Of a DNA stretch of 50,841 bases, positions 14,254-16,868 are shown piece after piece. Below the pieces are notes generated by a model. The model was not told where the DNA came from, searched no databases, and was given only the letters and a program-made list of their open reading frames with translations. This stretch comes from Thermodesulfovibrionales bacterium. Its GTDB lineage: Bacteria > Nitrospirota > Thermodesulfovibrionia > Thermodesulfovibrionales > CALJEL01. The stretch spans positions 33,061 to 83,901 of the forward strand of contig JAOACK010000002.1 in the NCBI GenBank assembly GCA_026417875.1, in the 5' to 3' direction. Each line of letters opens with the position of its first letter. Position 1 is the first letter of the stretch. Made by a program: the position numbers and the translations under genes.

Positions 14254-15126
14254 ATGATATCTCAACTTATTGATTATATAGTGCCGGCCCTTTTCAGATT
14301 TTTTGTTCTGGTCATAACAGCCCTTCCAGAAAGATTTACTCTCAAGACCGGTGAATTTCTTGGTAGACTTTTATACTATTTCTGGATTCCCAGAAGAAAG
14401 ATAGCGATAGAGGCAGTAAAGAAAACCTCATTGATGGTGAAACTCAAGACAAACCTTTCTCCGCATTCAATAGTAAAAAAGAGCTTCATTAACCTTGGAA
14501 GATCCTTTATAGAAATCATCAGACTCTATGGAGGAGACAGGAGCATTCTCAAGAGAGTAAAATTAAAAGGCATTGAGAATTTTGATAGAGCAAAGGCAGA
14601 AGGAAAAGGGATAATCTTTCTTACAGGTCATTGCGGTAACTGGGAGCTAATGGCACTGGCATTCGGAAACACTGTAGAACCGATAGGTGTTGTAGCAAGA
14701 CCGCTTAATAGCAGACAACTCAATAAACTCATTGAAAAAATAAGATGCAAGTTTGGCAACCACGTTATATATAAAAAAGGCGCTGTAAGAGAGATACTTA
14801 AATTTTTAAGAGAAAACAGGGCAGTGGGTATATTGATGGATCAGAGTGTTCTGAGGCAGGAAGGCATATTAATAGATTTTCTTGGAAGGCCAGCCTGGAC
14901 ATCAAGAACTCCAGCCATGATAGCAAAAAAGACAGGTGCAAAGGTGCTTCCAGCCTTTATAAAGAGAGATGGCGAATGGCATATTATTGAAATAGGGAAA
15001 GAGGTCCAATTAAAAGGTGATGAATTAGAGGATACAAAAAAACTCTCCTCCTATATTGAGACCTATATTATGGAACATCCAACAGAATGGCTCTGGATAC
15101 ACAGGAGGTGGAAGGAGAGGAGTTGA
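14254..15126 (+). CDS. Lysophospholipid/lipid A acyltransferase (LpxL/HtrB family)
   Basis: This is a 290-residue LpxL/HtrB/MsbB-type enzyme that adds a secondary acyl chain to lipid A precursors, or a related glycolipid, at the inner membrane. A hydrophobic anchor is at about 8-25. The catalytic H(x4)E motif HCGNWE lies at about residues 126-131, followed by the usual VVARPLN segment, a GILMDQ segment and FLGRPAWTS. Length and motifs are normal for the family. Which of the secondary chains it adds cannot be told. It starts 68 bp after the Lon-like gene; downstream is the non-coding island with the CRISPR array. Confidence 0.9.
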   Translation: MISQLIDYIVPALFRFFVLVITALPERFTLKTGEFLGRLLYYFWIPRRKIAIEAVKKTSLMVKLKTNLSPHSIVKKSFINLGRSFIEIIRLYGGDRSILKRVKLKGIENFDRAKAEGKGIIFLTGHCGNWELMALAFGNTVEPIGVVARPLNSRQLNKLIEKIRCKFGNHVIYKKGAVREILKFLRENRAVGILMDQSVLRQEGILIDFLGRPAWTSRTPAMIAKKTGAKVLPAFIKRDGEWHIIEIGKEVQLKGDELEDTKKLSSYIETYIMEHPTEWLWIHRRWKERS

Positions 15127-15270: not shown

Positions 15271-15301
15271 AAAAATAGGGACAATCCCTATTTTTGCAAT
15301 C
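15271..15301. repeat. 31-bp hairpin direct repeat, left copy
   Basis: This 31-bp sequence recurs without mismatch at 15711-15741. Within it, AAAAATAGGG and CCCTATTTTT form a perfect 10-bp stem with a 5-nt ACAAT loop, followed by GCAATC. This is the form of REP-like elements linked to RAYT/IS200-type transposases. No transposase is in the window. Confidence 0.9.
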
Positions 15302-15330
15302 GAAGATAACCTAACACTATTTCGGGGGCA

Positions 15331-15360
15331 CGTGGGGGAAATCAGTAGATTTCCCCCACG
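15331..15360. repeat. Perfect 13-bp hairpin beside the CRISPR array
   Basis: CGTGGGGGAAATC (15331-15343) and GATTTCCCCCACG (15348-15360) pair perfectly around the loop AGTA. It lies 24 bp beyond the degenerate end of the array. It could stop or protect the array transcript (minus strand), but no T-tract follows on either strand. Confidence 0.8.
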
Positions 15361-15384
15361 CTGTAAAACCTTCCAAGCAGGCAC

Positions 15385-15553
15385 TTCAAGTTTCCTGCCT
15401 GGCAGGAATGTCCGAAGACCTATTGTTAAACCCCTGCAGTTAGGGCTTTGCGTTTCAGTTCCTGCCTGGCAGGAATGTCCGAAGACAAATCTACATCGTC
15501 TATATAAGAAGTCTATTAGTTTCAGTTCCTGCCTGGCAGGAATGTCCGAAGAC
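15385..15553 (-). CRISPR. Minimal CRISPR array (3 repeats, 2 spacers), no cas genes nearby
   Basis: Three repeat copies of 35 nt lie at 15385-15419, 15452-15486 and 15519-15553, with an exact 67-bp period and two unrelated 32-nt spacers (15420-15451, 15487-15518). On the minus strand the repeat starts GTCTTCGGACATTCC and ends GGAACTGAAAC. The GAAAC end is typical of CRISPR repeats and sets the direction. A palindrome, TTCCTGC/GCAGGAA, lies at its centre. The left copy is degenerate only at the end corresponding to GAAAC, as expected of the terminal, leader-distal repeat. The leader should therefore lie to the right (15554-15710), which is AT-rich. No cas gene is present within the window. Confidence 0.78.
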
Positions 15554-15603
15554 AGCAGGCTTTGTAACTCTTTGTTTTCAAAGAACTTTTTATACCTAAT
15601 TTC

Positions 15604-15656
15604 GGAAACCTCCCCACCTTCTAAAGGTTACTAACATGTTACTAACAGAGGTTTCC
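15604..15656. repeat. Inverted repeat enclosing a tandem repeat in the presumed CRISPR leader
   Basis: GGAAACCTC (15604-15612) and GAGGTTTCC (15648-15656) are perfect inverted copies; with flanking TTC/GAA the match extends further with one extra base. Between them GTTACTAACA occurs twice (15627-15636 and 15638-15647). This lies upstream of the first repeat in the inferred direction of array transcription. Its role is unknown. Confidence 0.75.
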
Positions 15657-15710
15657 TGAATTTCAAAAAAATCATATTATAAAAGCACTTCTGCTGTCAA
15701 TAGCCTATCA

Positions 15711-15741
15711 AAAAATAGGGACAATCCCTATTTTTGCAATC
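15711..15741. repeat. 31-bp hairpin direct repeat, right copy
   Basis: It is identical to 15271-15301 and in the same orientation, so the two copies bracket a 409-bp segment holding the CRISPR array, the 13-bp hairpin and the leader-side repeats. It ends 38 bp before the -10 box of mltG. Confidence 0.9.
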
Positions 15742-15788: not shown

Positions 15789-16868
15789 ATGAGAAAAGAT
15801 TTCTTTCTTATTTTTTCAGGGATTCTGCTCATTGTTTTTGTTTATCTGAGCTTTCAATTATTCGTTCCTGTAAGGAGGGAACCTGAAAAACTTGAGATTC
15901 TCATTCCCAAGGGAATGACATTCCGAGAGGCTGTAAATCTCCTGTATGAAAAAAGGCTCATCAGGGACCGGAATCTCTTTATAATCCTGGGAAGGCTCAC
16001 AGGCCTGCACAGGTCCCTTAGATATGGTTATTATGAATTTCTTGGAGGGGTGAGTCCTGCCTCTGTTTTCAGAAAACTCCTCAGAGGAGAAATAGAGGAA
16101 TACGAGATAAAATTCATTGAAGGTCAGACACTTGCTGAACTTGCTGAGGTACTGGAAGAAAAAGGCATAGTTGATAAAGACAGGTTTTTCAATCTGGTCA
16201 GGGACAGGTCACTTTTAAAAGAACTGTCAGTGGATGCTCCTTCACTTGAGGGATATCTCTATCCGACCACCTACAGGATTCCAAAGGGTACAGATGTTAT
16301 TGATATCCTAAAATTCATGGTCAATACCATGAGAAAGATGATAAATCCCTATATTGAAAAGGCAGAAGAGATGGGGCTCAGCGAGAACGAGCTTCTCACC
16401 CTCGCCTCTATAATAGAAAAAGAGGCAAGGGTGGATTATGAAAGACCGCTTATTTCTGCAGTTTATCACAATAGATTAAAAAGAAAGATGAAACTTCAGG
16501 CAGATCCTACTGCAGTTTATGAACTCAGGGGTACTAAAAAACTTGTTACAAGGAAGGATCTTTTACGGAAATCCATTTACAATACCTATATGCATAAAGG
16601 CCTTCCGCCAGGCCCAATCGCAGCACCAGGACTTAAATCTATTGTAGCTGCAGTGAATCCTGCTCAGGTGCCCTATCTTTATTTTGTTTCAAATAACGAT
16701 GGCACCCATTATTTTTCTGAGAGATTTGATGAACACAGACAGGCTGTTCAGGAATATATAAAGAAAAAAAGGTTGGCAAGACAGAGGTCTGAAGATATAA
16801 GGAACCAAAAAAGAGAAAATGAAAATACCTACCAGTCACAGAGGGATACTAAACCTCTTTTGAGATAA
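15789..16868 (+). CDS. mltG: Endolytic murein transglycosylase MltG (YceG-like)
   Basis: MltG cleaves nascent glycan strands at the outer face of the inner membrane and is thought to end strand elongation. The 359-residue protein has an N-terminal membrane anchor (about 5-25) and a LysM-like subdomain (LEILIPKGMTFREAVNLL). The catalytic glutamate is in ASIIEKEA at about residue 213. The conserved QADPTAVYEL, GLPPGPIAAPG and NDGTHYFSERFDEH segments follow. A lysine/arginine-rich tail of about 25 residues follows the domain. The gene overlaps ispG by 1 bp (TAATG). Confidence 0.95.
   Translation: MRKDFFLIFSGILLIVFVYLSFQLFVPVRREPEKLEILIPKGMTFREAVNLLYEKRLIRDRNLFIILGRLTGLHRSLRYGYYEFLGGVSPASVFRKLLRGEIEEYEIKFIEGQTLAELAEVLEEKGIVDKDRFFNLVRDRSLLKELSVDAPSLEGYLYPTTYRIPKGTDVIDILKFMVNTMRKMINPYIEKAEEMGLSENELLTLASIIEKEARVDYERPLISAVYHNRLKRKMKLQADPTAVYELRGTKKLVTRKDLLRKSIYNTYMHKGLPPGPIAAPGLKSIVAAVNPAQVPYLYFVSNNDGTHYFSERFDEHRQAVQEYIKKKRLARQRSEDIRNQKRENENTYQSQRDTKPLLR

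Follow-up and report, generated by a model that had tools for sequence, protein, structure and literature searches.

Identical stem-loops on both sides of a short CRISPR array in a Thermodesulfovibrionales bacterium: a rare repeat of putative terminator function

Organisation of the locus

The window, a 50,841-nt stretch of a Thermodesulfovibrionales genome, contains a short CRISPR array in the interval between the lpxL and mltG genes, with one copy of a 31-bp hairpin at either side. Its features, with positions counted from the first letter of the window, are as follows.

14254–15126, plus strand: lpxL-type lipid A acyltransferase (PF03279), flanking gene
15271–15301, plus strand: hairpin copy 1, AAAAATAGGGA-CAA-TCCCTATTTTT followed by GCAATC, bidirectional terminator-like, at the distal end of the array's trailer
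15302–15391, minus strand: trailer, from copy 1 to the terminal repeat, about 74–75% identical to the trailer in the sister species G001
15331–15360, no strand assigned: perfect 13-bp GC-rich hairpin, CGTGGGGGAAATC...GATTTCCCCCACG, whose G001 counterpart is one member of a dispersed family numbering at least 30
15385–15419, minus strand: degenerate CRISPR repeat at the distal end of the array (81% over 36 nt), with an exact 28-nt core at 15392–15419
15420–15451, minus strand: 32-nt spacer 1, without an exact 24-mer match in IMG/VR
15452–15486, minus strand: CRISPR repeat, its minus-strand end being the tag-like ACTGAAAC
15487–15518, minus strand: 32-nt spacer 2, likewise without an exact 24-mer match in IMG/VR
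15519–15553, minus strand: leader-proximal CRISPR repeat, from the repeat search
15554–15700, minus strand: leader, kept in G001 (78% across 177 bp that take in the core of one repeat)
15711–15741, plus strand: hairpin copy 2, the same as copy 1, about 10 bp upstream of the minus-strand leader promoter
15789–16868, plus strand: mltG/YceG (PF02618), flanking gene

Read on the minus strand, the order is promoter-like site, leader, repeat, spacer, repeat, spacer, degenerate distal repeat, GC-rich hairpin and hairpin copy 1. The promoter-like sequence, TTGACA-18-TATGAT at 15700–15671, is directed into the array and matches at 11 of 12 positions, the joint best of 45 in 20 kb. Three repeats of 35/36 nt, two unique 32-nt spacers and a leader are what is expected of a CRISPR array. 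The repeat reads TGTCTTCGGACATTCCTGCCAGGCAGGAACTGAAAC on this strand, and its end, ACTGAAAC, resembles known crRNA 5′ tags. The sole ORF inside the hairpin pair (15332–15634) crosses the repeats and is not credible, which bears out an initial annotation of this DNA that had described the enclosed segment as an array, a strong hairpin and a leader with no coding gene. Neither the protospacers nor the CRISPR repeat had exact matches in IMG/VR, phage records showed no similarity to the region, and Rfam returned nothing above gathering score, the top entry being a chance microRNA match.

The neighbours of the array are lpxL and mltG, with no cas genes beside it. Cas1, Cas2, Cas6 and Csm5 are encoded on contig C72 of this genome, adjoining a different repeat, GTAGGAAAGAAGACCTCATTTAAAAGGGATTGCGAC, and we therefore regard the array as standing apart from the cas genes. 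In its promoter-bearing leader, 35/36-nt repeats, 32-nt spacers and degenerate distal repeat, it resembles a small orphan CRISPR array; it differs in that its repeat is unlike that of the genome's type III-A locus, and in that the sister species has its distal repeat and trailer as a dispersed unit. The C72 locus (L072, 2–6866) comprises Csm5, a CARF nuclease, Cas6, two Cas1–Cas2 pairs, the second with a diverged Cas1, and the array with the GTAGGAAAGAAGACCTCATTTAAAAGGGATTGCGAC repeat; a similar locus is present on contig C107 of the sister.

An exact pair from a four-copy family

By repeat search, the two hairpins are direct repeats with 100% identity over 31 bp, 440 bp from start to start and with 409 bp between them, just as the initial annotation had stated. 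Its description of the fold, a 10-bp stem with an ACAAT loop, needs correction: an extra A–T pair closes, giving an 11-bp stem and a CAA loop, and the GCAATC tail stands as described. The predicted folding energy is about −11 to −13 kcal/mol, with z-scores of −2.7 to −5.0. Chance origin of the pair was rejected, since the 21-bp hairpin core had no match in 100 dinucleotide shuffles of the window, and since, the two hairpins and the CRISPR repeats aside, no exact repeat of 18 bp or longer exists in its 50.8 kb.

Pattern and BLAST searches of both strands of the 2.0-Mb genome, on which our genome-wide statements rest, found four copies of the 31-bp hairpin, all exact, and none at one to three mismatches. 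Copy 3 (C2:29300) lies 19 kb upstream and is followed, within about 8 bp, by GGCAGGAATGTCCGAAGAC, which is the CRISPR repeat's final ~20 bp; the AATCCT that precedes it also precedes copy 1. Copy 4, on contig C20, lies 3 nt past the stop codon of a gene annotated by eye as precorrin-methylase-like, which is where a terminator belongs and so fits such a role. Remnants of one repeated element end (TTTTACACAGAAAATTTTACATTACC) adjoin copies 3 and 4 (L001, about 1675–1750, and L004) and occur also at L075 1–75. This element end, probably of an insertion sequence, has about 15 copies in the sister, several of them at contig ends.

Outside this genome the hairpin is rare. The search of relatives that the initial annotation had proposed found no copy in sister species G001, where one look-alike with three mismatches lies in another context. 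Sixty order relatives gave weak look-alikes, nearly all with three mismatches and one or two per genome, and a reversed-pattern control matched in several genomes too; no HUH-type transposase recognisable by motif adjoined them. One exact match to a 25-mer of the hairpin was found among about 85,000 species genomes, a set in which this genome and those closest to it may be missing. It belongs to an unrelated proteobacterium and sits between the 3′ ends of two genes read as convergent, which is where a stem-loop with the form of a bidirectional terminator would be expected. The 21-bp form is absent from IMG/VR.

With a stable 11-bp stem and a run of T5–T6, the hairpin has the parts of an intrinsic terminator, and with only three G–C pairs, the rest being A–T, it is a weak one by energy. 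It was missing from the output of the terminator scan, probably because its T run is paired within the stem. Its A5-stem-loop-stem-T5 layout and its location near gene ends liken it to bidirectional intrinsic terminators; the low stem GC content sets it apart from these, as does the identity between copies, which is not expected of ordinary terminators.

The array block in a sister species

G001 is the one genome in our same-genus comparison, which thus covers two species. In it, a leader (78%), one repeat and a trailer (about 75%) lie at the termini of contigs C56 and C3; the two contigs share a 141-bp overlap without mismatch (C56:1–141 is the reverse complement of C3:1–141). Because the block spans this contig junction, its exact layout in G001 is a reconstruction. 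The break in the assembly falls within the lone CRISPR repeat and may reflect spacers present at this point in other cells of the population.

By gene names assigned by eye, the G001 block is flanked by aroA on one side and by an MNT/HEPN-like pair and cmk on the other. The same genes are adjacent in the present genome, where the site is empty, with 16 bp from the end of aroA to the point where similarity to C3 restarts. The block is thus found at lpxL–mltG here and at aroA–HEPN–cmk in G001, and the two sites are therefore non-orthologous. In the lpxL–mltG region, where the initial annotation had proposed to look for a clean empty site across strains, the sister's gap has no leader or array, but it is filled by a different, repeat-rich insert. 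This insert (C26:16400–17850; L045) includes a small coiled-coil-like ORF, and parts of it recur (94% over 218 bp) beside a trailer copy on C53 (L050). The right hairpin, copy 2, has no counterpart in G001, being missing from its leader; in the present genome it ends about 10 bp before similarity to the sister's mltG upstream region restarts (about 15751).

The trailer-end slot itself is occupied in both species, by AAAAATAGGGACAATCCCTATTTTT here versus AAAAACCTGCACCTCGTAGGTGCAGGTTTTT in G001, two palindromes with a common A5-stem-T5 plan and unrelated stems. In the sense of array transcription, the G001 palindrome, hereafter hairpin A, has seven Ts after it. That the slot is kept although its sequence differs fits a terminator or REP role. 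A second trailer palindrome (CACGGGGGTGAAG...) is present at least 30 times in G001.

The G001 trailer with its repeat core occurs at C56/C3, on C96 (with an insert of roughly 185 bp), on C20 (80%) and on C53 (without hairpin A). The copies on C96, C20 and C53 have no leader, and their similarity stops at or near the repeat boundary. The hairpin CACGGGG(G)TGAAGCTTGTCTTCACCCC(C)GTG is dispersed in the sister in at least 30 copies (for example C26:17287–17323 and C53:15757–15787); one diverged relative was found in the present genome.

Comparison with REP and RAYT elements

REP elements usually number more than 100 copies, and RAYT genes have been reported to be flanked by inverted REPs (PMC2817692), while TIRYT elements end in a GGGGWSAS motif (PMC3733652). 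In G001, hairpin A lies on both sides of an intact 224-aa RAYT (C63:7170–7844): one copy is at about 7148 and another at about 7842, and there are more at about 7972 and 8006. The protein scores 65.1 bits against NCBIfam REP_Tyr_transpos, below the curated cut-off of 80, and exceeds the cut-off for Pfam Y1_Tnp. The one Y1_Tnp/RAYT-like gene found in the present genome (L054 5950–6633) is frameshifted, the sister's 224-aa protein splitting over two frames in tblastn. A related CACCTCGCAGGTG palindrome lies upstream of it, and no AAAAATAGGG hairpin was found around it. A link between the 31-bp hairpin and this gene was accordingly rejected. A porin-like gene adjoins the RAYT in both species.

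The initial annotation had proposed a REP-type hairpin moved by a RAYT or IS200-type transposase. The hairpin is REP-like in form, and it shares with REP/RAYT REPtrons (PMC2817692, PMC3733652) the character of a short intergenic palindrome present in several identical copies near gene 3′ ends; the sister's equivalent hairpin, on both sides of an intact RAYT, adds to the likeness. It differs in having four copies at up to three mismatches in 2.0 Mb, neither a GTAG nor a CGTC tag beside the palindrome in the flanks of any of the four, and no cognate RAYT in this genome, where a RAYT or IS200 gene with the hairpin in its own flanks was looked for and none was found. Judged by PMC2817692 and PMC3733652, the 31-bp hairpin therefore does not qualify as a REP moved by a RAYT, since it flanks no RAYT, is low in copy number and lacks a tag; the sister's hairpin A does show the flanking arrangement. 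With TIRYT terminal repeats (PMC3733652) it shares a GGGACA core and AT-rich flanks, and it differs from them by two mismatches to the 8-base GGGGWSAS (AGGGACAA) and by the lack of a transposase gene found beside any copy.

Interpretation of the hairpin pair

The best overall explanation, which we hold to be reasonably probable, is that the hairpin is a rare, recently duplicated, species-specific stem-loop repeat and a putative terminator, and that the pair did not serve as recognition ends that moved the block. The family is REP-like by form, and its A5-stem-T5 plan would suit a bidirectional intrinsic terminator. From the promoter at 15700–15671 the array would be transcribed leftwards, and the transcript would end at copy 1, which as the distal end of the CRISPR trailer could also stop read-through from lpxL. 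Copy 2 would be an additional copy that separates the leader promoter from mltG and may insulate the two transcription units. The block of leader, array and trailer appears to have changed place between the two species, and the identical pair may be the local result of repeat spread. A historical link between REP-like elements and the array, as a trailer or terminator module and not as matched ends, is supported, because the block is non-orthologous, a RAYT-flanking palindrome occupies the sister's left slot, and copy 3 is fused to a piece of CRISPR repeat.

That the hairpins are instead the ends of a non-autonomous element of RAYT/IS200 or TIRYT type, carrying the array and moved in trans by a transposase, we consider rather unlikely. 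An exact pair set tightly around a block whose location differs between species is what such an element would look like, and copy 3, fused to a CRISPR-repeat end and sharing AATCCT with copy 1, resembles an internally deleted second unit; the loop side GGGACA recalls the TIRYT motif GGGGWSAS (PMC3733652), and a genome of the same order has AAAAATGGGAAGTGTCCCTATTTTTGCAAT. Against this, the hairpins are direct, unlike the inverted REPs reported to flank RAYTs (PMC2817692), no target duplication was seen, and the one Y1 transposase gene detected in this genome has a frameshift and no such hairpin. The same ends were not found at the other location: because the sister's unit is without both copies, the pair is not supported as the ends of a moved unit. 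The initial annotation, which had offered such an element as one reading and two REP insertions that flank the array by chance as the other, is partly supported: the changed location of the block speaks for a weaker form of the first reading, and the four-copy family, a sister block without the hairpins and the lack of a hairpin-flanked RAYT in this genome speak against a transposon-like bracket. It had also allowed that scattered single copies, together with a relative having the array and neither hairpin, would make the bracket coincidental; this is largely the picture obtained, and it weakens the bracket reading.

Ectopic homologous recombination between dispersed REP-like repeats, with no transposase acting and with the hairpins marking crossover points, is an improbable route for the block. 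In its favour, dispersed palindromic repeats, some of them present dozens of times, surround the sister site, and both genomes have copies of hairpins and pieces of the trailer at several loci; yet an identity of 31 bp is short for recombination, the present genome is poor in such repeats, and no reciprocal junctions were identified. Ordinary terminators at both array ends, with no history of mobility and with the array lost at one site and kept at the other in each species, would account for the form and position of the hairpins, but we give this very little credence: 31 identical bases in the pair and four exact copies, none decayed, indicate recent duplication, and the aroA–HEPN interval measures only 16 bp here.

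Compared with the explanation we favour, of a rare repeat with putative terminator function, a broader proposal is quite doubtful, namely that the distal CRISPR repeat, trailer hairpin and REP end form one small mobile module, moved by a REP transposase and seeding single repeats, some of which would become arrays. This reading draws on the four sister copies (one without the REP end, three leaderless, and all with an end near the repeat boundary) and on the internally deleted copy here.

As far as literature searches showed, the movement and origin of short CRISPR arrays without neighbouring cas genes are poorly documented, and nothing specific was found on arrays bracketed by REPs. The two sister species share a leader and trailer at different loci, and a trailer with its terminal CRISPR repeat is dispersed. 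At the trailer-end slot, one species has a palindrome linked to a RAYT and the other an unrelated hairpin of four copies, which connects REP elements with CRISPR trailers.
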